Shown: in pieces, positions 35,428-50,176 of the stretch
Layout: every line of letters begins with the position of its first letter
Numbering within the stretch: position 1 is the stretch's first letter
Notes under the pieces: generated by a model
What the model was told of the DNA's origin: nothing
The model's input: the letters and a program-made list of their open reading frames with translations, nothing else
Database searches by the model: none
Origin: Pseudodesulfovibrio sp. S3
GTDB taxonomy: Bacteria > Desulfobacterota > Desulfovibrionia > Desulfovibrionales > Desulfovibrionaceae
DNA length: 64,000 nt
Assembly (NCBI RefSeq): GCF_004025585.1
Contig: NZ_QTZO01000001.1
Span: 124,001-188,000, forward strand
Reading direction: 5' to 3'
Position numbers and translations under genes: made by a program

Positions 35428-36546
35428 TTATATCCCTATATAATAGAAAGCCATGGCAAATAAGCCATCGGCAAAGGCGATGAGGATGATGCCCGAAACA
35501 ACGGCGCTGGTGGTGGACAGGCCGACTGCGCTGGCTCCTGATCGGGTCTGCATCCCGCGAAGGCAGCCGACTCCGGCCACCAGGAAGCTGAAGACCAGTG
35601 CCTTGGCCATGCCGCCCCAGAAATCAGTCAGGGTGAGGTAGGAGAAAACGCGCGAAGTGAAGGTGACCAGCGGATATCCCAGGGAGAGCATGACCACGGC
35701 TCCGCCGACCAGGCTGGCCAGATTGAAGAACATGGTCATCAGCGGAATGACCATCATGGTGGCCAGGAGTTTCGGCACTACCAGAAAACGCATGGGGGAC
35801 AGCCCCATGGTGGTCAGGGCGTCCAGTTCCTCGTTGATCTTCATGGTGCCGATTTCGGCGGCAAAGGCGGAACCGGACCGCGCGGCCAGGAGAATTGAAG
35901 TCACAAGGGGGCCCATTTCGCGGAACATGACCAGACCGAGCATGTTGGGTACGAAAATTTCGCCGCCGAACCGCTGCAGGCTGATGGCGGATTGAAAGGA
36001 CATGATCAATCCCATGAGAAATCCGATCAGGGCGATGATGAACAGGGACTCGACTCCCACGTTGATGCAGGAGAGCACAACGTCCTTCCAGCGCACCTGA
36101 CCCGGATGTAGCAGCGCCTGACCCAGCAGGAGTGTGGATTCGCCCACAAAGGCGACCATGGCACGAATGCCCAGCCACAGTTCGTTGGTCATTTCGCCCA
36201 AGGCCGTTGCCAATCCTCGCCGCTCTTTGGAGGTCTGCCACTCAGGCAGATCGATATTCCATGTCAGGCCGACAAGTTGACTGTCTTTTTCGCGCAGGTT
36301 GGCCAGGGTCATGGCCGAGTTCTTTTGCGCGGCCATTTTTCTGAGCTTGACGAGCAGGGCCACTCCGGAACCGTCCATGTAGGTGACGCCGCTACAATCG
36401 GCCGTAAGGGCAGTGAACGGGGCTGCACTGACGCCTTTGACCGCAGCGGACCATATGGCGGCCGTGCCTGCTGCGTCCAGGCGGCCGGAAAGGGCCACGT
36501 GCAGGCTGTTGCCCTGGGGCGAAATGGATATTTGTGCGTCTGTCAT
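35428..36546 (-). CDS. mlaE: MlaE-type permease with fused STAS (MlaB-like) domain
   Basis: Residues 1 to about 95 form a STAS domain (ISPQGNSLHVALSGRLDAAG, then DCSGVTYMDGSGVALLVKL), equivalent to the separate protein MlaB in E. coli. The rest is an MlaE permease with about five membrane segments (VESLFIIALIGFLMGLIMSF, then FREMGPLVTSILLAARSGSA). The frame continues nine codons upstream to a TTG; the ATG at 36546 is preferred, although neither has a strong ribosome site. It is the first gene of the - strand run ending with darP. Confidence 0.9.
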   Translation of the reverse strand: MTDAQISISPQGNSLHVALSGRLDAAGTAAIWSAAVKGVSAAPFTALTADCSGVTYMDGSGVALLVKLRKMAAQKNSAMTLANLREKDSQLVGLTWNIDLPEWQTSKERRGLATALGEMTNELWLGIRAMVAFVGESTLLLGQALLHPGQVRWKDVVLSCINVGVESLFIIALIGFLMGLIMSFQSAISLQRFGGEIFVPNMLGLVMFREMGPLVTSILLAARSGSAFAAEIGTMKINEELDALTTMGLSPMRFLVVPKLLATMMVIPLMTMFFNLASLVGGAVVMLSLGYPLVTFTSRVFSYLTLTDFWGGMAKALVFSFLVAGVGCLRGMQTRSGASAVGLSTTSAVVSGIILIAFADGLFAMAFYYIGI

Positions 36547-36624
36547 TTGACCGGTCTGTTTGTGGCCCTTCAATAGGAGTTTTATCAGGCTTTGTGTGGC
36601 TCTTGGCCAAAACTCGTCGAATTG

Positions 36625-36637
36625 TCAGATTATCTGA
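36625..36637. promoter_or_regulatory. Small palindrome between mlaE and lrp
   Basis: TCAGAT-T-ATCTGA is a perfect 6-bp inverted repeat around one base. It lies 79 bases before mlaE and 95 bases before the Lrp-family gene. Lrp-type sites are often short, A/T-centred palindromes of this size, so it may be an Lrp operator; a chance match is possible. Confidence 0.35.
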
Positions 36638-36694
36638 GGATTTGAGAAATGAAAAGGAGCTTGTGCGGGTTTCTCACATTGATGCCGGCGGTGG

Positions 36695-36723
36695 TTGACA
36701 GAATTGAAAAAGAATATTATTTC
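36695..36723 (+). promoter_or_regulatory. Putative promoter very close to the lrp start
   Basis: A perfect TTGACA (36695-36700) is spaced 17 bases from TATTTC (36718-36723); TATTAT at 36715-36720 is a better hexamer but gives a 14-base spacer. Transcription would begin around 36730, almost on the ATG at 36732, leaving no room for a ribosome site. Confidence 0.5.
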
Positions 36724-36731
36724 TTTATTCC

Positions 36732-37205
36732 ATGAATAACAGAAAGATTGACAAGTTGGACTTGGAAATCCTGAAGATACTTCAGGAAGACGGCAAGGTT
36801 TCCAATGCAGAAGTGGCCCGAAAAGTCGGCAAGGCTCCTTCGGCGGTGCTGGAACGCGTGCGCAAGCTGAAGAAGACCGACATCATCAAAGGCTATGAGT
36901 GTATTGTCAACCATAAAGCTTTGGGCAGGGGGCTGACCGCCTTCACATCCATTCGGGTGGAGGAAGGCGTTGGGGCCACCGAAGTCGGACAGAAGTTGGC
37001 TGAATTCCCGGAAGTTCTTGAAGTGCATTACACGGCAGGGCGGGATTCCTATCTTGTGAAGGTCCGAGTTGAAGACACGGAAGCCCTGCAGGCGACTCTG
37101 GCAAGATTTGGGACCATCGGGCCGGTCCGGGATACCAATTCCACCATAGTGTTGACCACGGTGAAGGAATCACGGGTCATACCTCTACCCCACGAAAACG
37201 AATAG
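36732..37205 (+). CDS. Lrp/AsnC-family regulator of putA (predicted)
   Basis: The protein (157 residues) has an N-terminal helix-turn-helix (KLDLEILKILQEDGKVSNAE, then VARKVGKAPSAVLERVRKLK) and a C-terminal RAM ligand domain (about 65-140: GRGLTAFTSIRVEEGVGATE). It is 17 bases upstream of putA on the same strand, and Lrp-family activators of proline catabolism (such as PutR) are known, so proline-responsive control is the likely job. The ATG has no visible ribosome site. Confidence 0.9.
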   Translation: MNNRKIDKLDLEILKILQEDGKVSNAEVARKVGKAPSAVLERVRKLKKTDIIKGYECIVNHKALGRGLTAFTSIRVEEGVGATEVGQKLAEFPEVLEVHYTAGRDSYLVKVRVEDTEALQATLARFGTIGPVRDTNSTIVLTTVKESRVIPLPHENE

Positions 37206-37222
37206 AATTAAAGGAGTCACAG

Positions 37223-40200
37223 ATGTCCACAAACACGACCTCCCTGGACCCGAGCATCATAACTCGGGGCAGGGAGTTTTTTACGTCCATTTCCGGCGAA
37301 TCTCCTTCGGTTTTCAATAAAGGCTGGTGGACTGGGAAAGTCATGGATTGGGCCATGAAAAACGATGATTTCAAGGTCCAAATGTTCAGATTCGTTGATG
37401 TTCTTCCGTACCTTAATACATCGGAATCACTTTCCCGCCATATCGAAGAATATTTCGCAACAGAGGATTCCAACATCCCGGATGTCCTGAAATGGGGAGC
37501 CACCAAGACCAAAATAGGCGGCGGACTGGTGGCCAAGGTTCTGAACAGGACCATCCGTTCCAACATCGAATCCATGGCCCGTCAGTTCATTATCGGCCAA
37601 GAGGCCAAAGAAGCTGTCAAGGGAATCAAGAAGTTACGTAAGGAAGGGTTCTCTTTCGTTCTCGACCTTCTGGGTGAAGCCACGGTGTCCGAGGTGGAAT
37701 CGGCCGCCTACCGGGATGGCTATCTTGAGGTCTTGGACGCCATACAGAACGAAATGGGCAAGTGGAAGCCGCTCGATGATGGGGCCAACGAACTGGACTG
37801 GGGCCATGCGCCCAAGGTCAATGTGGCGGTCAAGCCGTCCGCATTCTATTCCCAGTCCAAGCCCGTTGACCTGGACGGTACGGCCACAGGCATGCTGGCC
37901 AGCATCGAACCCATATATAAGAAGGTTATGGAGATGGGCGGGTTCATGTGCATCGACATGGAGTCACTCAAGTACAAGGAAGCCACTGTCGAGTTGTACA
38001 AACGACTGCGCACGAAATATCCCGACTATCCTCATTTGGGCATCGTGTTCCAGGCCTATCTGCGCAGCGTGGATGACGATGTTCACGATTTCATCTCCTG
38101 GGCCCGGGAGAAGAGCCTTCCGGTGTCAATCCGTCTGGTCAAGGGGGCGTACTGGGACTACGAGACCGTCATTGCCAAGCAGAACGATTGGTCCGTGCCG
38201 GTCTGGACGCACAAACCCGAATCCGACATGGCCTATGAGCGGGTTTCCAGGTACATCCTCGAAAATTCGGATATCTGCCATTTCGCCTGCGCCTCGCATA
38301 ACATCCGCACCATCGCTGCGGTCATGGAAACGGCTGCGGCCCTGAACGTGCCTGAGGAGCGGTATGAGTTCCAGGTGCTTTACGGCATGGCCGAACCCGT
38401 GCGCAAGGGGCTCAAGAACGTGGCCAAGCGCGTCCGGCTCTACTGCCCCTATGGCGACCTGCTGCCCGGCATGGCCTATCTTGTCCGCCGCTTGCTTGAG
38501 AATACGGCCAACGAGTCCTTCCTCAAGCAAACCTTTGCCGATGAGGCGGATATGGATCGCCTTTTGGAGAACCCCGAGATCACTCTCAGGCGGCAGTTGG
38601 AAGGCAAGTGTGTGCCTGAAGAGGCAAAGACGGACGGGCTGCCCCGTTTTTCCAACTTCCCGGCCGTTGATTTCACCATCGAGGCCGAACGCCAGGCTTT
38701 TCCCGCATCCATCGCCAAGGTCCGTGCTGCCATGGGCGGACAGATTCCTTTGTTCATCAACGGCCGGGATGTCGTCACCGGCGACACTTTGGATTCCTAC
38801 AATCCGGCCGACCCGTCAGAGATTGTCGGTTCCGTGTGTCAGGCGGGTGTGGGTGAGGTGGACCGGGCCATAGAGGCGGCGTCGGAAGCCTATCTCTCCT
38901 GGCGCGACGTTGCACCTCGGGAGCGTGCCGAGGCCCTGCTCAAGGCGTCCCAATATCTTAAAGACAACATATACGATTTGTCCGCGCTCCAGGTGTTGGA
39001 AGTGGGCAAGCAGTGGGACCAGGCCCACGCCGACGTGGCCGAGGCCATTGATTTCCTGGAATACTATGCCCGCGAGATGATCCGGCTGGGTGCTCCCCGC
39101 CGCATGGGCCGTGCTCCCGGCGAGATGAGTCAGCTCTTCTACCAGGGCAAGGGCGTGGCCGCGGTCATCGCCCCGTGGAACTTCCCCCTGGCCATTTCCG
39201 TGGGCATGGTTTCCGCCGCCATTGTTTCCGGCTGCCCTGTGGTTTACAAGCCCGCGGGCATTTCCTCCTGCGTTGGACGCGGGATGGTGGACATGTGGAA
39301 GGCCGCTGGGCTGCCTGACGGCGTGTTTAACTACTGTCCGGGCCGGGGGGCGGTCATGGGTGATCATCTCGTGGATCACCCGGATGTCTCGGTCATTGCG
39401 TTCACCGGCTCCATGGAAGTGGGCCTGCGCATTCAGGAACGTGCCGCCAAGGTGCAGCCGGGTCAGATGCAGTGCAAGCAGGTCATTGCCGAGATGGGAG
39501 GCAAGAACGCCACCATTATCGATGACGATGCCGATCTCGACGAAGCCGTACTCGGCGTGTTGTATGCCGCTTTCGGTTTCCAGGGACAGAAGTGCTCGGC
39601 CTGTTCGCGGGTCATCGTTCTCGATTCCATTTACGACCGTTTTGTCGATAGACTGACCGAGGCTGCCAAGTCGGTCAAGCTCGGACCTTCCGAGAACCCG
39701 GCCAACTACATGGGGCCGGTGGTGGACAGGGCGGCCCAGGAAAACGTCATGCGCTACGTCAAGATTGCCGAGGAAGAGGGCAACCTGCTGGTCAAGCGCG
39801 AGGTGTCCGACGATCTCAAGGCCACGGGCGGCTGCTTCGTGCCTTTGACCATTGTGGACGGCATCACCAAAGAGCACCGTATCGCTCAGGAAGAAGTGTT
39901 CGGTCCGGTGCTCGTTGTCATGCGTGCCAGTGATATGGATGAGGCACTCGATATCGCCAACTCCACCAAGTTCGCCCTGACCGGGGCCATTTATTCCCGC
40001 AGCCCGCATCATCTTGAACGGGCCTACAAGGAATTCCGGGTGGGTAACCTCTACCTGAACAAGCCTTCTGTGGGTGCCTTGGTCGAACGACATGCCTTCG
40101 GCGGTTTCAAGATGTCCGGTGTGGGTTCCAAGGCCGGTGGCCCGGATTACCTGCTCCAGTTCCTTGACCCCCGGTTGGTCTGTGAAAACACCATTCGCCG

Positions 40201-40243
40201 TGGTTTTGCCCCCATTGAGGAGGATGACGACTGGTTGAGCTAG
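37223..40243 (+). CDS. putA: Bifunctional proline dehydrogenase / glutamate semialdehyde dehydrogenase
   Basis: PutA oxidises proline to glutamate in two steps, with FAD in the first domain and NAD in the second. The 1006-residue protein lacks the N-terminal ribbon-helix-helix DNA-binding domain of E. coli PutA. The proline dehydrogenase barrel covers about 110-470 ([35 protein letters not shown]). The aldehyde dehydrogenase covers about 510-990, with [15 protein letters not shown] (general-base glutamate) and the catalytic cysteine C791 in [12 protein letters not shown]. The start follows AAAGGAGTCACAG. It is probably cotranscribed with the Lrp-family gene and ends at a strong terminator. 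Confidence 0.95.
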
Positions 40244-40266
40244 GTTTTGACATGTTCCACTTCAGC

Positions 40267-40302
40267 GCCCTGTCCGGTCTCGACCGGACAGGGCTTTTTT
40301 TT
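40267..40302 (+). terminator. Rho-independent terminator after putA
   Basis: A 13-bp perfect inverted repeat (GCCCTGTCCGGTC at 40267-40279 with its complement 40282-40294) is followed by eight T. It lies 23 bases after the putA stop. Confidence 0.95.
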
Positions 40303-40369
40303 CATTTTTTCTTTCTCAACCGTGGTCAGCTGACTGCATTTTTTCAATAATTATATATTGATCGATGAA

Positions 40370-40393
40370 AAAACTGAGTATACACTCAGTTTT
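40370..40393. promoter_or_regulatory. TetR operator 1 upstream of the -35
   Basis: AAAACTGAGT-ATAC-ACTCAGTTTT is a perfect 10-bp inverted repeat. A second, nearly identical copy lies 68 bases downstream. The pattern ACTGAGT-N4-ACTCAGT is typical of TetR-family operators. Confidence 0.85.
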
Positions 40394-40403
40394 ACGGTTT
40401 ATT

Positions 40404-40433
40404 TTGACATTAAAGCCTATTAGCAATTATAAG
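40404..40433 (+). promoter_or_regulatory. Promoter of the TetR-SulP-signalling unit
   Basis: TTGACA (40404-40409) is spaced 18 bases from TATAAG (40428-40433), a strong sigma-70-type match. It lies between the two operator palindromes, so bound repressor would block it. Confidence 0.85.
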
Positions 40434-40437
40434 CAAG

Positions 40438-40461
40438 AAAACTGAGTGAGTACTCGGTTTT
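40438..40461. promoter_or_regulatory. TetR operator 2 over the transcription start
   Basis: AAAACTGAGT-GAGT-ACTCGGTTTT differs from a perfect palindrome by one base and matches operator 1 in both half-sites. It begins four bases after the -10 hexamer, covering the likely +1. Confidence 0.85.
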
Positions 40462-40482
40462 CGGAAATGAAGGATTGTCAGC

Positions 40483-41067
40483 ATGAAGAAGAAGGATTCC
40501 ATACTCAAGGTTGCCTCGTTTATGTTTGCGCATAAGGGGTTTGCGGAGACATCCGGGCAGGAATTGGCCCGGCTCACCGGGGCGGCCGAGGGGACGATTT
40601 TCTATCACTTCAAGAGCAAGGAAGGGCTCCTGCTGGCGATACTGGAAAAGACCAGGGACGATATAGTGGACCAGTTCGAACGGTTCTTCGAGAACAGGCC
40701 GTTCAATTCAGGTCTTGAGATGGCGGAGGAGGTCATCTCATTCTATCTCTACCTGGCCGGCTTGATGGAAGACAAGTTCCTGCTCCTGCAAAGGCACTTT
40801 CTCTACAAGTTCTCCGAATCGAATCCGGAGTTCAGAGATAACCTGGAGGACATCTACAACTGCCTCGTGGATAATTTCGAGAAGGCGGTTGTGGCAGGGC
40901 AGAAAGACGGTTCCATTGATGCGAACATTCATCCCCGGAAATCGGCGCTCATCCTGTTTACCATGGCAGATGGTTTGGTTCGGTTCAAAAACTACAATCT
41001 GTACGATGCTGGTGCACTGTTCAACGATTTGATGCAGATGTGCCGCAAAATGTTGCAGGCTCCATGA
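40483..41067 (+). CDS. TetR-family regulator
   Basis: The protein (194 residues) has a TetR DNA-binding domain at about 1-52 (ILKVASFMFAHKGFAETSGQ, then GAAEGTIFYHFKSKEGLLLA). The C-terminal domain is helical and not recognised further. It is the first gene after a promoter flanked by two matching palindromes, so autorepression is very likely. It is 13 bases upstream of the SulP gene, and probably controls that gene and perhaps the signalling genes beyond. Confidence 0.92.
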   Translation: MKKKDSILKVASFMFAHKGFAETSGQELARLTGAAEGTIFYHFKSKEGLLLAILEKTRDDIVDQFERFFENRPFNSGLEMAEEVISFYLYLAGLMEDKFLLLQRHFLYKFSESNPEFRDNLEDIYNCLVDNFEKAVVAGQKDGSIDANIHPRKSALILFTMADGLVRFKNYNLYDAGALFNDLMQMCRKMLQAP

Positions 41068-41080
41068 AGGAAGAGGTTGG

Positions 41081-43207
41081 ATGCTTTCAAAAATATTCCC
41101 TTTCATTGACTGGTTCAAGGGGTACAATGGGGCGGCACTTCGTGCTGACGCCATTTCGGGGCTGACCGTTGCCCTTGTGCTCATCCCGCAATCAATGGCG
41201 TACGCACAGTTGGCCGGAATGCCCGCTTACTACGGTCTGTATGCGTCGTTTCTTCCCCCTCTCGTAGCCGCGCTGTTCGGCTCCAGCCGTCAGTTGGCCA
41301 CCGGTCCGGTGGCAGTGGTGTCGCTCATGACCGCTGCCTCCCTGGAGCCTCTGGCCACCGCCGGCAGTGAAGGGTACATCGCGTATGCCATCCTGCTTGC
41401 GCTCATGGTGGGAATGTTCCAGTTCCTGCTCGGCGTGCTCAAGCTCGGCCTGGTTGTCAATTTCCTGTCCCATCCGGTGGTCAACGGCTTCACCAACGCG
41501 GCCGCCATCATCATTGCTTCGTCCCAGTTCTCCAAGATGTTCGGCGTGTACGTGGACAGCGCGGAGCATCATTATGAGACCATCATGCGTGTGGTCGAGA
41601 GTGCGATGCACTATACCCACTGGCCTTCGCTGGGCATGGGGGTACTCGCCTTCGGCATCATGATCGTGCTCAAACGTATCAATCCCCGGATTCCCAACGT
41701 GTTGGTGGCCGTGGTCGTGACCACTTCGCTGTCATGGGGCTTTGGCTTCAACCACGACGCCAAGGTCGTGTTGGATGCCATCCATTCTCCGGTCGTGCAT
41801 GAGACCATTGCCGCTTTCAACAGCACCATCACGGGTATTGACGAAATGGGCATTGAACGTGCCGCCCTCGGCAAGCAGATGGAAGAGGTCAAGTCCGCCA
41901 AGGACGCCGTGGGTGTACTCGACGTGCAGCACGACCTCAGCGTCGTCAACGTCAAGATTGCCCGGCTCAAATTGCAGGCCCATGACCTGCGCTCGCAACT
42001 CCGTGACATCCTGTTCGAGGGAGTGGAACAGTCCGACGGCAATCTGGCATTTTATGAATCGGGCATGGTCCCGGCAGGCATGAGCACCGATGGCCGGACC
42101 TGGCGCTTGAAGGTCGGGAATGCACGGATCGACACCTCTGCCTTGAAGATGATGGGCGGCGGGGCCGTGGTGGGAACGGTGCCTTCAGGCATCCCTGCCA
42201 TTTCCGCTCCTCCCCTTGATTTCAAGGTAATGCTCCATCTGCTCCCGTTCGCCGCGATCATCTCCTTGCTTGGTTTCATGGAGGCCATTTCCATTGCCAA
42301 GGCCATGGCAGCCAAGACCGGGCAGCGCCTCGATCCCAACCAGGAACTCATTGGTCAGGGTTTGGCCAACATGCTCGGCGCCTGCGGCAAGAGCTATCCT
42401 GCATCCGGTTCGTTTTCCCGTTCGGCGGTCAACCTCCAGGCGGGTGCCGTCACCGGCCTGTCCAGCGTTTTCACTTCGCTCATGGTGGTCATCGTCCTGA
42501 TGTTCTTCACGCCGCTGCTCTACCATTTGCCCCAGGCCGTACTCGCCGCCGTCATCATGATGGCCGTCATAGGTCTGATCAACGCTTCCGGTTTCATCCA
42601 TGCCTGGAAGGCCCAGTGGTATGACGGTGCCATTTCCATACTTTCCTTTATCTGCACGTTGGCCTTTGCGCCGCATCTGGACAAGGGTATCATGGTTGGT
42701 GTGGCGCTTTCCCTGGCCGTGTTCCTGTACAAGTCAATGCGTCCCCGTATCGCCAATCTGTCCAGAACCGCCGACCAGTCCCTGCGCGATGCAACGGCCT
42801 TCGGAATGAAAGAGTGCCAGCATGTGGCTCTGGTTCGTTTTGACGGACCGTTGTTCTTTGCCAATGCGAGCTTCCTGGAAGACAAGATCACCGAGCGGAT
42901 GATGGGTAACGACAAGCTCCGGCACATCATTCTTGTGGCCAGCGGTATCAACGACATGGATGCTTCGGGCGAGGAAGCCCTGTCCCTGATCGTGGACCGG
43001 GTTCGTTCCAGCGGGCTTGACATATCCCTGTGTGGCGTGAATGAGTCGGTCATGGCTGTGCTCGAACGCACCCACCTGCTGGAGAAGATCGGTCGGGATC
43101 ACATCTACCCGACAATGGAGGCCGCCATTTGTGCCACTCATGAGAGCGCACACAAGGACGGCGAGGAAGATAATTGTCCTCTTACCACTGTTTGCCGCCT
43201 CGCTTAG
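41081..43207 (+). CDS. SulP-family anion transporter with large insertion and STAS domain
   Basis: This 708-residue protein is a SulP (SLC26-type) carrier for sulfate, bicarbonate or another anion. The N-terminal membrane domain starts with the signature DAISGLTVALVLIPQSMAYA (23-42) and resumes at about 380 with HLLPFAAIISLLGFMEAISI. Residues about 228-370 form an insertion not usual in the family, with a likely coiled coil at 255-312. The C-terminal STAS domain covers about 575-690, with DMDASG at 625-630. The substrate is not known; in a sulfate reducer sulfate is one candidate, but bicarbonate or organic anions are equally possible. It is 21 bases upstream of the receiver fusion gene. Confidence 0.92.
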   Translation: MLSKIFPFIDWFKGYNGAALRADAISGLTVALVLIPQSMAYAQLAGMPAYYGLYASFLPPLVAALFGSSRQLATGPVAVVSLMTAASLEPLATAGSEGYIAYAILLALMVGMFQFLLGVLKLGLVVNFLSHPVVNGFTNAAAIIIASSQFSKMFGVYVDSAEHHYETIMRVVESAMHYTHWPSLGMGVLAFGIMIVLKRINPRIPNVLVAVVVTTSLSWGFGFNHDAKVVLDAIHSPVVHETIAAFNSTITGIDEMGIERAALGKQMEEVKSAKDAVGVLDVQHDLSVVNVKIARLKLQAHDLRSQLRDILFEGVEQSDGNLAFYESGMVPAGMSTDGRTWRLKVGNARIDTSALKMMGGGAVVGTVPSGIPAISAPPLDFKVMLHLLPFAAIISLLGFMEAISIAKAMAAKTGQRLDPNQELIGQGLANMLGACGKSYPASGSFSRSAVNLQAGAVTGLSSVFTSLMVVIVLMFFTPLLYHLPQAVLAAVIMMAVIGLINASGFIHAWKAQWYDGAISILSFICTLAFAPHLDKGIMVGVALSLAVFLYKSMRPRIANLSRTADQSLRDATAFGMKECQHVALVRFDGPLFFANASFLEDKITERMMGNDKLRHIILVASGINDMDASGEEALSLIVDRVRSSGLDISLCGVNESVMAVLERTHLLEKIGRDHIYPTMEAAICATHESAHKDGEEDNCPLTTVCRLA

Positions 43208-43227
43208 GGCGTAGATAGGGAGTAATC

Positions 43228-44445
43228 ATGTCTGTAATCACCATATTCAACGGCCTGTTTTCCGAAGCAGGAGTAGTCGTCAAGCGCGTCCTGGATTCCA
43301 CGGGGTACCGGCTGGTCACTGATCAGGAAATCGTGGCCGATGCCGCGGCACTCTCAGGCCTTGCCGAATCGAAAATTGCTCGTGCCTTCCAGGCCAAGAC
43401 CTCTGTTTTCAACACGTTCAGCCATGACAAGGAAAGGGCCATTGCCTGGCTGCGTCTGGCCATGGCCCGGAAGCTTGTTGATCAGGATAAGCTGCTGTTT
43501 TCCGGTTTTGCTTCGCAGCTGCCTTCTCCTGATATCGATCACATCCTCAAGGTCTGCCTCATCTCCAGCATGAAAGAGCGTCTGGCCGTGGCGGAAAAGA
43601 CCGAAGGCTATGCCGAAAAGCATGCCCTCAAGATCATCCACAAGGATGACGAGGATCGTTCCGTCTGGGTTGCCGCCCTGAAGGGGGAAAAGGACCCCTG
43701 GGCCAGGAAGCTCTATGACCTCATTGTCCCCGTGGGCAGCTCAGGTGTGGAGAAGAGCGCCGACCTTATCATCGAGCAGCTCGCCAACACCGCCGTGCAG
43801 GTGACCGATGCATCCCGTGCCAAGGTTCAGGACTTTCTCCTGGCCGCCAGGGTCGGGACGGTTCTGGCCGGTGAGGGGCACAATGTGGTGGTCTCCGCCA
43901 AAAAGGGCACTGTCACCTTGACCATCAACAAGCACGTGCTCCTGCTGGAAAAGCTGGAGAAGGATCTGGCCGATATCGTGGCCGGTATCGATGGCGTCCT
44001 TGAGGTGAAGACCGGCGTGGGCAAAGGATTCCACCAAAATGACATCTACCGCAAAATGGACTTCGACATCCCGTCCAAGGTCTTGCTGGTGGATGACGAG
44101 CGTGAATTCGTCCAGACCCTGTCAGAGCGTTTGATGATGCGTGACATGGGTTCCGCCGTGGTCTACGATGGAGAGTCCGCTCTGAATCTGGTGCGGGATG
44201 ACGAACCTGAAGTGATGATCCTCGACCTCAAGATGCCCGGTATCGACGGTATCGAGGTTCTGCGCAGGGTCAAGAGCGAGCATCCGAATATCGAGGTTAT
44301 CATTCTGACCGGTCACGGTTCGGAAGAAGATCGCAAGGTGTGTATGGATCTCGGCGCATTTGCCTACCTGCACAAGCCTGTGGATATCGACGTCCTGAGC
44401 AAGGCGCTCAAGGATGCCAACGAAAAAATCCGCTCCAACTCGTAA
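43228..44445 (+). CDS. Cytidylate-kinase-like / BON-like / receiver fusion protein
   Basis: The 405-residue protein has three parts. Residues 1 to about 190 resemble the cytidylate kinase-like family (Cytidylate_kin2): SVITIFNGLFSEAGVVVKRV at the P-loop position, WLRLAMARKLVDQDKLLFSG, and the closing RSVWVAAL / YDLIVPVGSSGVEKSADLII. The P-loop has no GK[ST], so kinase activity is doubtful. Residues about 195-265 resemble a BON domain (VVVSAKKGTVTLTINKHVLL, then IDGVLEVKTGVG). Residues 283-400 are a receiver with phosphoacceptor D333 and the conserved K383. No output domain follows. The domain calls for the first two parts rest on motif layout only. Confidence 0.8.
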   Translation: MSVITIFNGLFSEAGVVVKRVLDSTGYRLVTDQEIVADAAALSGLAESKIARAFQAKTSVFNTFSHDKERAIAWLRLAMARKLVDQDKLLFSGFASQLPSPDIDHILKVCLISSMKERLAVAEKTEGYAEKHALKIIHKDDEDRSVWVAALKGEKDPWARKLYDLIVPVGSSGVEKSADLIIEQLANTAVQVTDASRAKVQDFLLAARVGTVLAGEGHNVVVSAKKGTVTLTINKHVLLLEKLEKDLADIVAGIDGVLEVKTGVGKGFHQNDIYRKMDFDIPSKVLLVDDEREFVQTLSERLMMRDMGSAVVYDGESALNLVRDDEPEVMILDLKMPGIDGIEVLRRVKSEHPNIEVIILTGHGSEEDRKVCMDLGAFAYLHKPVDIDVLSKALKDANEKIRSNS

Positions 44446-44466
44446 GTACGGAAGCCGGGTGACGTC

Positions 44467-46194
44467 ATGTCGTTAATGGAAAAGATCAGGCCGCAGTTTT
44501 GGGACACCGAATCCAACGGCGCTACAGGCAAAGACCTGTTCAACTATCATCGCATCTGGCGTCTCGCCATAGCCCTGCTGGCTGTGGTGGCATTGATTCC
44601 GCTGACGGTGATGGCTTTCATCGATTACAACGTCACCCGGCATTCCCTTGAGTCGGAAAATCTTCTGCGCACGGCTCGTACCACGTCCAACACGCGCCGA
44701 TCGGTTGCGTACTATTTGGAAGAGCGGACCAAGGCACTGGAATTTCTGGCTGAGCACGAGGGCATCGAGGGCTTGCATGATTCCGATAATCTCACCAATA
44801 TCCTGGCTTCCCTGAAAACCAGTTTCGGGGGATTTGTGGACATCGGGATTATCAATGACCATGGGCAGCAGATCGCCTATATCGGACCTTACGACCTTCT
44901 GGGGCGCGACTACAGCGAGCAGGAGTGGTTTCGGGATTCCCTGGAGCACGGTACGTATATCAGCAGCGTTTTTCTCGGTTTCCGGGACGAGCCGCATCTG
45001 ATCGTTGCCCGAAAGGTTCTTGACGCGCGGACAGGTCAGGATTTCGTGCTCAGGGCAACGCTGGATACCGGGCAGTTCAATTCCATGCTCACTTCAATAG
45101 ATCTGCCGGGCGGTGGCGATGCCTTCATGGTGGATCGAAACGGTATCATCCAGACCCCGTCAAAACAGCACGGTACGCTGTTGACCAAGGTGGACCTGGC
45201 TATCCCGTCTTATTCGGAAAAAACCAGCGTCCAGCAGGTGCCGGGCAATGGCGGTACTGATTATACCGTTGGATACGCCTATATAAAGGACACTCCGTAT
45301 ATCGTCCTCGTGGTCAAGGATACAGAGGAATTGATGAAGCCTCTGCAAACAATCAGGATGGAGTTGCTGTGGATCATGCTGGTCAGCATCGCACTTATCC
45401 TGGTTGTGATTGTCGGGGTGGCCACATACATGGTCAACAAGATTTATATCGCCGACCAGACCAGGGCGCGGACCCTGCATCGGATGGAGCACACCAACCG
45501 CATGGCCTCCATCGGGCGATTGGCGGCTGGTGTGGCTCATGAGATCAACAACCCGCTGGCCATTATCAATGAAAAGGCCGGGCTCATAAATGATCTGTTT
45601 GTCTACAAGCAGGAGTACGCCCACGACGAGCGGCTGCTGGCAAACATCCGGTCCATCATCAATTCGGTTTCCCGTTGCGGCAAGATCACCAAGCGGCTTC
45701 TGAGTTTTGCCCGTCATATCGACGTAGAAATGGATTCCATCGAATTCAAGGAGTTGGCGAACGAGGTCGTGGATTTTTTGCGCAAGGAAGCGGAGTATCG
45801 CAGCATTGCCATCACTATGGATATTCCGGAGAATCTGCCCGCGTTCGTCTCTGATCGGGGCAAGTTGCAACAGATATTTCTCAACTTGGTCAACAATGCG
45901 TTTCAGGCCATGAGTGACGGTGGACATCTCTACATCTCCGCTCGTGAAGTCACCGACGGCAAGCTGGTTTTTGCTGTGCAGGATGACGGGTGCGGCATAC
46001 CGGAAGCGGATATCAAGCGTATATTCGATCCGTTCTTTTCCACCAAGAAAAAGAGTGGTGGTACAGGCCTCGGCCTTTCCATCACCTATGGGCTGGTCGA
46101 AGAGCTGGGCGGTACCATGGCCGTTGAGAGCGAAGTAGGCAAAGGAACGGTTTTTACCATCACAATGCCCCTGAAGGGTTCTAAAGAGGCTTGA
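44467..46194 (+). CDS. Membrane sensor histidine kinase with extracytoplasmic Cache-like domain
   Basis: The 575-residue kinase has two membrane segments (about 32-52 and 299-322) enclosing a periplasmic region of about 245 residues that resembles a double Cache sensor (VDIGIINDHGQQIAYIGPYD, DYSEQEWFRDSLEHGTYIS). The HisKA motif has H358 in GVAHEINNPLAIINEKAG; N box (FLNLVNNAFQAM), G1 (DDGCGIP) and G2 (GTGLGLS) are all present. Cache domains bind small organic ligands such as carboxylates. The stop is six bases before the ATG of the next receiver gene, which supports partnership. Confidence 0.93.
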   Translation: MSLMEKIRPQFWDTESNGATGKDLFNYHRIWRLAIALLAVVALIPLTVMAFIDYNVTRHSLESENLLRTARTTSNTRRSVAYYLEERTKALEFLAEHEGIEGLHDSDNLTNILASLKTSFGGFVDIGIINDHGQQIAYIGPYDLLGRDYSEQEWFRDSLEHGTYISSVFLGFRDEPHLIVARKVLDARTGQDFVLRATLDTGQFNSMLTSIDLPGGGDAFMVDRNGIIQTPSKQHGTLLTKVDLAIPSYSEKTSVQQVPGNGGTDYTVGYAYIKDTPYIVLVVKDTEELMKPLQTIRMELLWIMLVSIALILVVIVGVATYMVNKIYIADQTRARTLHRMEHTNRMASIGRLAAGVAHEINNPLAIINEKAGLINDLFVYKQEYAHDERLLANIRSIINSVSRCGKITKRLLSFARHIDVEMDSIEFKELANEVVDFLRKEAEYRSIAITMDIPENLPAFVSDRGKLQQIFLNLVNNAFQAMSDGGHLYISAREVTDGKLVFAVQDDGCGIPEADIKRIFDPFFSTKKKSGGTGLGLSITYGLVEELGGTMAVESEVGKGTVFTITMPLKGSKEA

Positions 46195-46199
46195 GCGAT

Positions 46200-46550
46200 A
46201 TGAAAGTACTTCTGGTTGACGACGAAGTGGAACTGGTTTCCGCAATGGCGGAACGCCTCGAATTTCGCGGGGTGGATGCGGATTGGACGGACAACGGCGA
46301 GGCGGCCCTGGAAATGGCTTCCCGGACCGACTACGCCGTTGCGGTGCTCGACATGAAAATGCCTCGATTGAGTGGATTGGATCTCATGGAGCGCCTTTCT
46401 TCCCAACACCCGGACATGAAGTTCATATTCCTTTCCGGTCATGGTTCCGAGGCGGATTTCAAGGCCGGTTGTGCGGCCGGATGCAATTACCTGATAAAAC
46501 CCATTCAGATTGATGACCTCATTGCCAGGATCAACCAGGTCGCAGGTTGA
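46200..46550 (+). CDS. Single-domain response regulator
   Basis: A 116-residue receiver with the acidic pair D7/D8, phosphoacceptor D51 and conserved K100, and no output domain. A TTG three codons upstream would overlap the kinase stop; the ATG at 46200, preceded by AGAGGCTTGAGC, is preferred. It may pass phosphoryl groups within the phosphorelay or act by protein contact. Confidence 0.92.
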   Translation: MKVLLVDDEVELVSAMAERLEFRGVDADWTDNGEAALEMASRTDYAVAVLDMKMPRLSGLDLMERLSSQHPDMKFIFLSGHGSEADFKAGCAAGCNYLIKPIQIDDLIARINQVAG

Positions 46551-46566
46551 TCGGGAGGAAGAATTA

Positions 46567-47217
46567 ATGACCCAAACAACATCGAACTCCCGCGAAGGGT
46601 TACAGTTTTTCGGGCGCATCAGCGCGTCCGTGTCCCATGAGATAAAGAACGTCTTTGCCGTTATCAATGAATCGGCGGGACTGATCGAGGATTTCACGCT
46701 CATGGCAGATCGGGGCATGCCCATCCAGCCCGATCGGCTGAAAAGCGCGGCCAATTCCATTCAGGGCCAGGTTCGGCGGGGTGATACCATCATCAAGAAC
46801 ATGAATGCCTTTGCGCATTCGACCGATGAGGCTGTCCGCGAATTGGATCTTGTGGAAGCCCTCGATCTGACAGTGGCCCTGACCACACGTATTGCCGACA
46901 TGAAACAGATCAGGTTGACCTCGGGGGATTGCCAAGCAGTTTCCCTGGTCACCAACCCCTTTGATCTGACACGGCTGCTGCACTCCTCCATAGTGGCAGC
47001 CCTGGATTGCATGCAGGCGGGCGACACCCTGGTCATCGGCCTGAAATCCGTGTCCGGCGGCGCATCGTTCTCCCTTTCCGCTCCAGGAAAGGATGCTCCG
47101 CTGAAGAATGACGAATCGTTTTCACCCCTTGCGCAGGCCATGAACGCCAGCGTGACCGTGGATGAGGACACTGGAACCAGCGAGTTGCGCGTTTTGGCGG
47201 CAACCGGGTCCAAGTAA
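46567..47217 (+). CDS. Histidine-kinase-like protein lacking ATPase motifs
   Basis: The protein (216 residues) begins with a HisKA-like segment, with H24 in ISASVSHEIKNVFAVINESA. The matching kinase at 44467 has GVAHEINNPLAIINEKAG, so the two are clearly similar in this region. After about residue 90 a short domain follows (TNPFDLTRLLHSSIVAALDC, LVIGLKSVSGGASFSLSA) that resembles an HATPase in outline but has no N box and no G1 or G2 box. It may be a histidine phosphotransfer or dimerisation partner. The start follows GGGAGGAAGAATTA. Confidence 0.8.
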   Translation: MTQTTSNSREGLQFFGRISASVSHEIKNVFAVINESAGLIEDFTLMADRGMPIQPDRLKSAANSIQGQVRRGDTIIKNMNAFAHSTDEAVRELDLVEALDLTVALTTRIADMKQIRLTSGDCQAVSLVTNPFDLTRLLHSSIVAALDCMQAGDTLVIGLKSVSGGASFSLSAPGKDAPLKNDESFSPLAQAMNASVTVDEDTGTSELRVLAATGSK

Positions 47218-47248
47218 CATCACATTCATACCGAATTGGAGAAAGACA

Positions 47249-47677
47249 ATGGCAGAAAAAGTACTGCTTATCGATGATGAAAAGGAATTCCTGGAAGCCC
47301 TGTCCGAAAGGATGACAATCCGTGGAATGGACGTGAGCACTGCGGAAACCGCGACTAACGCCGTCAGCGCATTGAGCGCCGGTGATTACGACGCCATCGT
47401 GCTCGACCTGCAGATGCCCGACATGAACGGCATCGACATGCTCAAGCTCATCAAGAAGAGCCACCCGGATATGCAGGTCATTCTGCTCACCGGCCAGGCT
47501 ACTCTCGAGGCGGGCATTCAGGCCATGAAGCTTGGCGCCATGGACTTCATGGAAAAACCTGCCGACATAGAAGCCTTGACCGACAAGATCAAGAAAGCGC
47601 AGGCCAAGAAAATGGTCATCGTGGAAAAGAAGACCGAAAAGAAGGTCAACGACATCCTCAAGACCAAGGGATGGTAG
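47249..47677 (+). CDS. Single-domain response regulator with charged tail
   Basis: A 142-residue receiver with phosphoacceptor D53 and K103. After the receiver there is a Lys/Glu-rich tail of about 25 residues (KKAQAKKMVIVEKKTEKKVN) and no output domain. The start follows TTGGAGAAAGACA. It is the last gene of the run from 40483 and is followed by a terminator. Confidence 0.92.
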   Translation: MAEKVLLIDDEKEFLEALSERMTIRGMDVSTAETATNAVSALSAGDYDAIVLDLQMPDMNGIDMLKLIKKSHPDMQVILLTGQATLEAGIQAMKLGAMDFMEKPADIEALTDKIKKAQAKKMVIVEKKTEKKVNDILKTKGW

Positions 47678-47696
47678 GCCGTCCACAGTTCAGACG

Positions 47697-47734
47697 AAAA
47701 AGGCTGACGGGTTCATTCCCGTCAGCCTTTTTTT
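47697..47734 (+). terminator. Terminator of the SulP-signalling run
   Basis: A stem of ten GC-rich pairs (GGCTGACGGG, 47702-47711, with CCCGTCAGCC, 47718-47727), extended by A and T runs, has a 6-base loop and ends in seven T. Confidence 0.93.
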
Positions 47735-47753
47735 GGCGATGTCTGGAGCAGGC

Positions 47754-48245
47754 CTACAGGTGGAGGGTCATGGCGTGCCACGGTACTCCGCCGTGGCTGG
47801 AGGCGGACAGGCCCTCGTCGAGGAAACCATGGCGGGCGTAGTAGGGGATGAGATCATGCTTGCACAGCAGCTTGACCGTGGACTTGCCCATTTCACGGGC
47901 CTGTTCGATGAAATTTGACATGAGCTTGTCGGCAATGCCGCGCCGCTGGAAGTCTGGATGCACGGACAGGGAGAATATGACGATGTGGCAGCCATCGGGA
48001 TCATGCCCGATGAGTTGCTTGAATTCCTCGTCGGTGATGTCGTCCTTGTTCGTGGAGCCGGAGTTGATCTGACCGACCACACGGCCTTCCCATTCGGCCA
48101 CGAAAAACCCTTCGGGGAAGTGCTCGATGCGGTTGCGTAAGCTTGTGGTCCAGGCCGCCTCGGCAGGGGGAAAACAATTGGCTTCTATGGTATGGCAGGC
48201 GGTCAAGTCGTCGGGGTCGACGTTGCGGATGTTCAGCGCTTTCAT
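47754..48245 (-). CDS. GNAT-family N-acetyltransferase
   Basis: The 163-residue protein has the GNAT acetyl-CoA fold: VAEWEGRVVGQINSG (motif D/A strand), SVHPDFQRRGIADKLMSNFI (motif A with the Q-R-x-G-x-A loop) and YYARHGFLDEG (motif B). It resembles AANAT-type small-molecule acetyltransferases; the substrate is unknown. It starts two bases after the uup stop, so the two are one unit. Confidence 0.9.
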   Translation of the reverse strand: MKALNIRNVDPDDLTACHTIEANCFPPAEAAWTTSLRNRIEHFPEGFFVAEWEGRVVGQINSGSTNKDDITDEEFKQLIGHDPDGCHIVIFSLSVHPDFQRRGIADKLMSNFIEQAREMGKSTVKLLCKHDLIPYYARHGFLDEGLSASSHGGVPWHAMTLHL

Positions 48246-48247
48246 GG

Positions 48248-50176
48248 TCAGTCCAGTTCTACGCCTTCAAGGGCGGTTTCGAGTTGTTCCCAGCTCTCAT
48301 AGGCGATTTCCAATTCAGACTCAAGGGTTTCCATGCGCCTTTGGTCGTCATTCATTACCTCGCCGGAATTCTTGAAATAATCCGGTGCAGACATTTTGGC
48401 TTGCAGGGCTTCAAGTTCTGTTTCCAGTCGTTCGATCAGGGCGGGCATGGTCGCAAGTGCCTCCCGCTTTTTTTCCAGTTCGAATTTTTCCTTGTAGCTC
48501 AACTTGCGCCTGGCAGGACTTTCCGGTTTGGAAGCGATTTTTTGTTTGCATGTCTTGACGGGGCCGGCCGTTTTATCCGGACGTTGGCGAACCCAGTCGT
48601 CATAGCCGCCCACGTATTCAGCGACCACGCCGTCATCTTCAAAGGCGATGGAGGAGGTGACCACGTTGTTGAGAAAGTCTCGGTCATGGCTGACCAGCAG
48701 CAGGGTGCCGGGATAGTCCATGAGCAACTCTTCAAGCAGGTCGAGGGTCTCGGCGTCGAGGTCGTTGGTCGGTTCGTCCATGACCAGGACGTTGGCCGGG
48801 CGAGTGAAGAGCCGGGCCAGGAGCAGTCGGTTGCGCTCGCCGCCCGAGAGTACGCTGACGGGCACCCTGGAACGGTCCGGGGTGAAAAGAAAATCCTTGA
48901 GGTGGGACATGACATGGCGCTGGTGGCCGTTGATGGTCACGAAATCATTGCCGTCGGCAACGTTGTACCGGGCGGATTCGGTTTCGTCGAGCTGCTCTCG
49001 GAGCTGGTCGAAATAGCTGACCTGGAGGTTGACGCCGCGTCGGACGGACCCTGACTGTGGTTTGATATCTCCCAGCAGTATCTTTAGCAGGGTAGTCTTG
49101 CCCGCGCCGTTGGGGCCTATGAGGCCGATCTTGTCACCGCGCATGATGGCCGTCGAGAAATTCGTGATCAGCGGGGTATCGCTGTATCCGAAACAGATAT
49201 CGGTGGCTTCCACCACGAGTTTTCCCGTGCGCTCGGCCTCCTGGATAACCATCCTGACGGAGCCGGTCCGGTCGCGACGGGCATTTCGCTCCTCGCGCAT
49301 CTTGCGAAGATCCCGCACCCGGCCCATGTTTCGCGTGCGCCGGGCCTTGATGCCCTGCCGTATCCAGGTTTCCTCTTCGGCCAGCTTGCGGTCGAAATTG
49401 TGGTTTTGCTTGGCTTCGGCGCTCAGGACCGCGTCCTTGCGTTCCAGGTAGGTGTCGTAATTGCAATCCCAGCTGAAGAGTTTGCCCCGGTCCAATTCCA
49501 CGATGCGCGTGGCCAACCTGCGCAGGAAGGCCCGGTCATGGGTGACGAAAAGCACGGCCGCATTCTGCCGAAGCAGAAAATCCTCCAGCCAGGAAATGGA
49601 GTCGATGTCCAGGTGGTTGGTGGGCTCGTCCAGTATGAGCAGGTCAGGCCCGGAAACCAGGGCCCGGGCAAGCAGGGCGCGGCGCTTGGTGCCGCCTGAC
49701 AGGGACGCGAACAGTTCGTCTCCGTCGAGTTTGAGGTGCGAGAGCACGGTCTCGATCGTTTGGTGATGCGGCCAGCCTCCGGCCTCTTCCAAGGCGTGTT
49801 GGGCATGTTCCATCTGGCTGACCAGGGTGTCGTCCGGCTCCAGGGATTCGGCCAGGGCATGGGCTGCGGCGTGATATGCGGACAGGTGCCTGCCCACGGC
49901 TCCAAGCCCCTGGGCGGCGATGTCATAGATCGTGCCTGCGAGATCCTGCGGCACCTCCTGGGGAAGCATGGCCACGCGTGAGCCGCGGGCGTAATCCACG
50001 GAACCGGAATCCGGCTGGGTGATGCCTTCGATGATGGAGAGCAGGGTGGATTTGCCCTCGCCGTTGCGCCCCAGCAGGCAGACACGCTCGCCCGGTTCGA
50101 TCTGCATGGATATGCCGTCCAGAAGGACCGTGCCGGTGAAGTTGATGGAGATATCGCGTAAGCTGACTACTGCCAT
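48248..50176 (-). CDS. uup: ABC-F family ATPase, Uup type
   Basis: The 642-residue protein has two ABC ATPase domains and no membrane segments. The first Walker A is GRNGEGKST (36-44), the second is GPNGAGKTT, and both have LSGG signatures (SLSGGTKRR, VLSGGERNR). A C-terminal coiled coil of about 80 residues (KKREALATMPALIERLETEL and after) is typical of Uup, which is linked to transposon precise excision, branched DNA binding and ribosome assembly in E. coli. MAVVSLRDISINF is chosen as the start; the frame extends ten codons upstream. GNAT follows directly. Confidence 0.9.
   Translation of the reverse strand: MAVVSLRDISINFTGTVLLDGISMQIEPGERVCLLGRNGEGKSTLLSIIEGITQPDSGSVDYARGSRVAMLPQEVPQDLAGTIYDIAAQGLGAVGRHLSAYHAAAHALAESLEPDDTLVSQMEHAQHALEEAGGWPHHQTIETVLSHLKLDGDELFASLSGGTKRRALLARALVSGPDLLILDEPTNHLDIDSISWLEDFLLRQNAAVLFVTHDRAFLRRLATRIVELDRGKLFSWDCNYDTYLERKDAVLSAEAKQNHNFDRKLAEEETWIRQGIKARRTRNMGRVRDLRKMREERNARRDRTGSVRMVIQEAERTGKLVVEATDICFGYSDTPLITNFSTAIMRGDKIGLIGPNGAGKTTLLKILLGDIKPQSGSVRRGVNLQVSYFDQLREQLDETESARYNVADGNDFVTINGHQRHVMSHLKDFLFTPDRSRVPVSVLSGGERNRLLLARLFTRPANVLVMDEPTNDLDAETLDLLEELLMDYPGTLLLVSHDRDFLNNVVTSSIAFEDDGVVAEYVGGYDDWVRQRPDKTAGPVKTCKQKIASKPESPARRKLSYKEKFELEKKREALATMPALIERLETELEALQAKMSAPDYFKNSGEVMNDDQRRMETLESELEIAYESWEQLETALEGVELD

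Follow-up and report, generated by a model that had tools for sequence, protein, structure and literature searches.

A block of seven co-directional genes, identified from open reading frames (ORFs) and Pfam matches, lies on the plus strand within positions 40370 to 47734 of a 64,000-nucleotide stretch of DNA from Pseudodesulfovibrio sp. S3 (contig NZ_QTZO01000001.1, positions 124,001 to 188,000; hereafter, the window). In order, the genes encode a TetR-family regulator (tetR), a SulP anion carrier (sulP), a protein that joins a degenerate cytidylate-kinase-like domain to a receiver (CKR), a Cache-type membrane histidine kinase (HK), a stand-alone receiver (RecA), a kinase-like candidate phosphotransferase (HKL) and a second stand-alone receiver (RecB). 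The original prediction, made from the letters of the window, had counted six genes and proposed a phosphotransfer test with four receivers; we found three receivers, CKR, RecA and RecB. Judging from sequence, we read the block as a self-contained module for sulfate uptake in dissimilatory sulfate reducers, in which the output of a phosphorelay would fall on SulP through CKR, and we give this reading a probability of about 0.55. How sulfate uptake is regulated, so as to save energy and avoid over-accumulation of sulfate, is a question raised in PMC5840216 and PMC11887813 (here and below, statements on cited papers refer to the parts of them consulted). The block would be a compact, conserved and testable answer to how sulfate reducers switch sulfate uptake. 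It suggests that a phosphorelay may end at the transporter protein instead of a promoter, and that unrelated carriers may have a degenerate kinase-receiver adaptor in common.

Conservation of the block as one unit

A strong match to CKR (E below 1e-150) was present in 32 of the 36 genomes of the genus, S3 included. In two others (G008 and G029, about 82% complete), contig ends (L081, L082) carry the downstream genes of the block, and two (G003 and G016) showed none. By tblastn, the seven genes were all present, co-directional and spaced as expected, in 30 of 31 genus loci, and in each of the 28 loci with room on both sides. The flanks vary: a gene labelled putA precedes the block in just 7 of 29 genus loci.

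For the phylum (Desulfobacterota), named genomes were searched with an alignment of the CKR N-terminal part, and the best 80 of 220 loci were used. These came from Desulfovibrionaceae, Desulfobacteraceae, Desulfosarcina, Desulfonema, Desulfobulbaceae and Syntrophobacteraceae, as well as from unplaced Deltaproteobacteria, Proteobacteria or Thermodesulfobacteriota. SulP stood directly before CKR in 74 of the 78 loci with a called CKR, and HK directly after it in 69, contig ends accounting for six of the other nine. ORF labels gave an unbroken row of seven in 30 of the 80 loci, many of the contigs being cut. Among the 37 phylum loci with room, 27 hold all seven genes, co-directional and spaced as expected, and 25 do so when a strict order of best hits is applied. 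Seven of the 80 contigs also occur in the genus set, and four of them have room; without these four, 23 of 33 loci hold all seven genes. Because gene order is kept across the phylum while the flanks change, we are nearly certain that the block is a real conserved unit. The synteny check suggested in the original prediction was thereby passed throughout the phylum.

Association with sulfate reduction

In a panel of 297 genomes of the phylum, a strong CKR match was present in 35 (E 3e-38 or better, a cut-off chosen on seeing the list; this count is based on the CKR match, irrespective of the receiver). A full-length SulP of at least 61% identity was present in 30, a count that leaves out a fragment in genome G155 and SulPs of at most 56% identity. 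All 30 genomes with the SulP also hold CKR (Fisher 3e-36, the genomes not being independent); the two genes are adjacent on one contig in 26 of them, on different contigs in three (G231, G170 and G334) and apart in one (G141). The dsrA gene scored over the cut-off in 34 of the 35 CKR genomes (the exception is G098), compared with 144 of 297 in the panel (hypergeometric 4e-11, again for genomes that are not independent); this compares CKR genomes with the whole panel. The S3 genome itself carries dsrA. It is the dsrA association, as the sole support, that suggests sulfate as the SulP substrate.

Parts of a proposed phosphorelay

We examined the signalling proteins across 61 cassettes; six of these come from contigs present twice, and 55 remain when the duplicates are dropped. 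HK retains the N, G1 and G2 boxes in all 61 and, with its Pfam domains, would be the kinase with DHp and ATPase domains from which a phosphorelay starts. In HKL, by contrast, the same boxes were detected in 0, 1 and 0 of the 61 cassettes. HKL matched HisKA in 42 of 47 members, and none of the 47 matched an ATPase model in Pfam. Its His24 is invariant across the 47 alignment rows, and its predicted structure (predicted local distance difference test score (pLDDT) 92) combines a helical hairpin with a kinase-type catalytic fold. HKL had been described as a kinase-like protein without an ATPase core. The ATP-binding motifs are indeed gone, but the kinase-like fold is kept, and the protein is best read as a phosphotransferase: it would be the second DHp protein of a relay, with a conserved histidine and no working ATPase, and we consider this assignment probable. 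The Pfam histidine phosphotransferase model, the ChpT family proper, was matched by none of the 47 members at E 0.01; we take PF10090 to be its accession. No ChpT or Spo0B chain appeared among the matches listed for HKL, though such a match may exist beyond them.

Helix alpha-1 of HKL is closest to that of the cassette HK, with 9 of 17 positions identical, compared with at most 7 for the other kinases of the genome that yielded the motif; this comparison covered the listed HisKA places of the genome, among which 4 of 30 loci and 4 of 20 regions yielded no motif. The receivers of RecA, RecB and CKR have a common alpha-1 surface (9 to 10 of 18 positions identical).

No Pfam DNA-binding domain was found in the RecA (55/55), RecB (39/39) or CKR (40/40) proteins scanned. 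The RecA and RecB sets were picked by length (114-143 and about 139-150 amino acids), which left out 19 same-strand receivers; ten of these, mostly longer, were scanned as well, with nine remaining, and contained receiver domains only, plus weak matches below the cut-off. The proposal that the receivers carry no output domain thus stood with respect to DNA binding, but not for CKR, which has an N-terminal PF13189 domain. Since the receivers scanned showed no DNA-binding domain, the output is most likely exerted on a protein, and control of the SulP carrier itself, as the original prediction had suggested, is plausible.

Further kinase-receiver clusters occur in the same genome. One (L274; G000:C1:349000-363000) encodes an HK, three stand-alone receivers and a TauE/SafE-type carrier with a partner gene, followed by another kinase and, by likeness, a sigma-54-type activator, the same logic with a different carrier family. 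In two others (L273, G000:C5:234000-246000; L275, G000:C13:1-11000), HK and receivers are accompanied by a pyruvate-phosphate-dikinase-like (PPDK-like) protein in place of the carrier; PPDK_N and PEP-utiliser domains were found in its relative in L069.

CKR and related proteins

CKR consists of PF13189 and a receiver in all 40 proteins scanned, out of 73 complete CKRs. By Pfam it belongs to the cytidylate kinase-like family, but it differs from that family in being fused to a receiver and in lacking P-loop motifs: by motif, the nucleotide-binding P-loop of such enzymes was found in 0 of 61 cassettes. Among the cytidylate-kinase-like (CK-like) proteins without a receiver, 19 of 24 keep a related R-x-S-Y motif in the first 50 residues. 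The predicted CKR structure has a pLDDT of 88.5. The kinase-like part has distant PDB relatives by profile (3hdt and 3fdi); the fold-search matches listed were to the receiver (residues about 280-405), and the kinase-like part is assigned by Pfam and the profile match.

Homologues of CKR directly adjoin SLC13-type carriers (L069, L071, L072 and L073) and occur in clusters with a TauE-type carrier (L068-L070). Pfam confirmed the carriers of L071, L070 and L196 as CitMHS/Na_sulph_symp with TrkA_C, those of L069 and L202 as TauE and that of L200 as SulP; the remaining carriers were judged by likeness. We also fetched the surroundings of 20 CK-like hits chosen from panel rows, 19 without a receiver and one CKR. 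A carrier directly adjoined the gene in nine of these loci (SLC13 in 7, SulP in 1 and TauE in 1), and in two more it lay three genes away (TauE in 1, SLC13 in 1). SulP, DASS (SLC13-like) and TSUP (TauE-like) proteins are among the sulfate carrier families discussed for sulfate reducers (PMC5840216). We tentatively suggest, as a possibility that we ourselves regard as doubtful, that the dead cytidylate-kinase-like receiver protein is a portable adaptor for SulP, SLC13 and TauE/SafE carriers of sulfate reducers, acting in a phosphorelay that gates the membrane carrier directly; it might join receiver phosphorylation with a nucleotide or adenosine 5'-phosphosulfate (APS) signal and so match sulfate uptake to the energy state.

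A cassette variant, with an SLC13 carrier, a tandem pair of CK-like genes, and then a receiver and a kinase, in that order, was seen in L196, L194, L201 and L205. Several clusters in which CKR or a CK-like gene accompanies a sulfate-type carrier also encode a PPDK-like protein (L068, L069, L184, L185 and L204).

The SulP carrier

SulP has a PF00916 core and a STAS domain, and a soluble insert of some 130 residues (about amino acids 226-357) interrupts the core. The insert was present in all 61 cassette loci readable on both sides, with no length filter; an earlier test on SulPs over 650 amino acids had given 60/60. It is absent from the second SulP of the S3 genome and from the SulP of L200, which lies beside a CK-like gene. 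No strongly hydrophobic 19-residue stretch was found in the insert (maximum 0.98 on the Kyte-Doolittle scale), and from SLC26 topology we take it to lie between membrane helices 7 and 8, on the periplasmic side. In the STAS domain, each position of the motif DASGEE (amino acids 627-632) is conserved in 90% or more of the cassette SulPs; we presume the motif to resemble the phosphoserine loop of SpoIIAA-type proteins.

The carrier can be likened, by description, to SulP group Ci of PMC5840216, which also reaches about 710 amino acids through an insertion relative to model SulPs and which its authors assign to the sulfate clade. The Ci insertion is about 90 amino acids with an extra membrane helix, versus about 130 amino acids here.

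Comparison with known systems

A cluster of similar make-up has already been published. PMC11887813 (Sci Adv 2025) describes a sulP cluster of Desulfobacteraceae that holds two-component genes and a TetR with a palindromic operator; DASS clusters are described there too, accompanied by two-component and CBS genes. The paper reports Cache kinases that share residues, proposes that kinases sense sulfate and work with "WalR type" regulators, and adds a second level of control, for which APS, ATP or sulfide may be the signal. One figure legend gives promoter interaction of the activated regulators and also putative protein-protein interactions. SulP, TetR with its palindromic operator, the Cache kinase, response regulators and an occurrence in many sulfate reducers are common to that cluster and our block. 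The regulators there are called WalR type and are given as interacting with promoters, whereas the receivers of our block show no DNA-binding domain. A WalR-type regulator, taken as DNA-binding, was not found among the receivers scanned; a Desulfosarcina relative (L178) is included in the RecB set.

The earlier statement that no named system has this composition therefore needs qualification: the combination of sulP, tetR and two-component genes was on record, but not as a phosphorelay. The words phosphorelay, cytidylate and receiver are absent from the main text of PMC11887813 (its supplements lay outside the search), and the parts of it examined make no mention of a degenerate kinase-receiver protein or of the three-carrier pattern. 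Literature searches that combined cytidylate kinase-like proteins with sulfate carriers, response regulators and phosphorelays listed no closer match. As far as these searches reach, reading the cluster as a phosphorelay with protein-level output is new.

The CckA-ChpT-CtrA/CpdR relay (PMC9981736) and Spo0B likewise combine a kinase, a receiver and a pseudo-kinase phosphotransferase made of a DHp and a dead catalytic domain, and branch to more than one receiver, as is proposed here. What sets our block apart is that its putative intermediate receiver is encoded separately, that no end point with DNA binding was found, that the system is linked to a carrier, and that the HKL matches include no Pfam phosphotransferase model.

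Proposed mechanism and alternatives

In the mechanism that we propose, TetR would repress the single promoter through two operators, whose anatomy is observed. HK would sense a periplasmic signal through its Cache domain and phosphorylate RecA; the phosphate may then pass to His24 of HKL, an ATPase-less kinase acting like ChpT or Spo0B, and from HKL, presumably in this order, to the receivers of CKR and RecB. CKR would bind the cytoplasmic side of SulP, with STAS as the likely site, and might open or close the carrier depending on the phosphorylation of its receiver and on a small ligand, possibly a nucleotide, held in its dead kinase domain. HK may in turn read the transporter through the insert on the periplasmic side of SulP. 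Beyond the anatomy we infer all of these steps, phosphotransfer along the block proteins and control of SulP included.

Several observations weigh against this mechanism. The gene set is not invariant, because among the 37 phylum loci with room RecB was not found beside 9, HKL beside 4 and TetR beside 3; in L140 and L141, HKL and RecB lie upstream on the opposite strand. The G155 fragment, 250 residues of a SulP with 71% identity, occurs without a strong CKR. Docking at STAS and the periplasmic place of the insert are our own deductions, and the likeness of HKL to HK may reflect duplication only. Kinases with several receivers are not peculiar to sulfate carriers, since L273-L275 combine a kinase and receivers without SulP and some receivers outside the block match its alpha-1 pattern equally well. 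Mutual information over the 61 cassettes (effective number 33) gave no pairing of receivers with kinases. Finally, 9 of the 20 CK-like loci have no labelled carrier nearby, as judged from labels, without a Pfam scan of the neighbours.

SulP might instead be the sensor, with transport flux tuning the kinase through the insert or STAS while RecB and CKR have targets of another kind, such as energy metabolism or sulfate activation. The insert, found in every readable cassette SulP and absent from two others, would suit such a role, and the E. coli SulP member DauA interacts with the DctA/DcuS sensor complex (PMC5703999). SulP is the sole candidate target within the block, however, and the relatives of CKR remain beside carriers of three families; we consider this reading rather unlikely. 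Conventional transcriptional control, after PMC11887813, would have the Cache kinase sense external sulfate, the phosphorylated regulators act on promoters and TetR form a second layer. The published cluster, which has TetR with a matching palindrome, Cache kinases and "WalR type" regulators, favours it, as do the operator-like repeats confirmed at our block, and an unlinked DNA-binding regulator could possibly be fed by HKL. The receiver scans, the ten further receivers included, count against it, and we hold it unlikely.

Single-domain receivers serve as phosphate sinks or branch points in other systems, and CKR and RecB could do so here, shaping the kinase response while the true output regulator is encoded elsewhere. 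The common alpha-1 surface of RecA, RecB and CKR would agree with this, though some outside receivers share it. A sink would hardly account for the large extra domain that CKR conserves in 40/40, nor for the company that its relatives keep with carriers of three families, and we judge this quite improbable. Nothing was found in favour of a chance neighbourhood without common function, which is ruled out, for practical purposes, by synteny, the order being kept across the phylum between flanks as changeable as putA. Control of SulP through CKR is the reading that we prefer.

Anatomy of the locus and its control elements

The features of the block are listed in Table 1. The intergenic gaps, from tetR to RecB, are 13, 20, 21, 5, 16 and 31 nucleotides, so the 6-30 bases given originally were close to the measured range of 5 to 31. 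An operator-flanked promoter, a closing terminator and a single direction had also been proposed, and all were borne out. Two 18-bp inverted repeats, ACTGAGT-N4-ACTC[AG]GT, lie on either side of the promoter-like motif, and the terminator hairpin has a folding energy of -27.8 kcal/mol (z-score -6.1). The promoter was read by eye, since the automated scan demanded T at position 6 of the -10 element and left the motif unlisted; the hairpin was likewise absent from the list of that scan and was scored by RNA fold instead. The two-operator pattern was present in 19 of the 28 genus loci examined. In these 19, TTGAC[AT] is kept between the operators, the -10 element only loosely, and the remaining spacer is variable. 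From these sequence features, the seven genes are probably carried on a single transcript from one promoter.

Table 1. Features of the seven-gene block (positions in the window)
Feature	Position	Strand	Motif or evidence	Remark
Putative TetR operator 1	40373..40390		ACTGAGT-N4-ACTCAGT	perfect inverted repeat; kept upstream of tetR in genus loci
Promoter-like motif	40404..40433	+	TTGACA-N18-TATAAG (sequence)	sits between the two operators
Putative TetR operator 2	40441..40458		ACTGAGT-N4-ACTCGGT	68 bp from operator 1
TetR-family regulator, 194 aa	40483..41067	+	PF00440, E 1e-12	
SulP/SLC26 anion transporter with STAS, 708 aa	41081..43207	+	PF00916, PF01740	
CKR, 405 aa	43228..44445	+	PF13189, PF00072	degenerate cytidylate-kinase-like domain, middle segment, C-terminal receiver
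HK, membrane histidine kinase, 575 aa	44467..46194	+	Pfam	dCache_1, HisKA and HATPase_c
RecA, stand-alone receiver, 116 aa	46200..46550	+	Pfam	
HKL, DHp-type phosphotransferase candidate, 216 aa	46567..47217	+		His24 kept, ATP-binding motifs lost
RecB, stand-alone receiver, 142 aa	47249..47677	+	Pfam	C-terminal tail
Intrinsic terminator	about 47697..47734	+	RNA fold	hairpin and T-run

Rfam gave no RNA element match within 36000-50000. A plasmid origin of the block was rejected: blastn gave matches to 26 plasmid records, but in no case did they reach 80% of the query, and the five plasmid matches listed cover 3-5% of it, four being annotated sulP. PDB matches of TetR to MbdR and to a regulator of fatty acid metabolism (3whb) extend along most of the protein and score about 41 bits; they hint at a ligand of the acyl-CoA type, but do no more than hint. 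The upstream neighbour of the block is a putA-like gene (37223-40243) with a terminator of its own (40267-40294).

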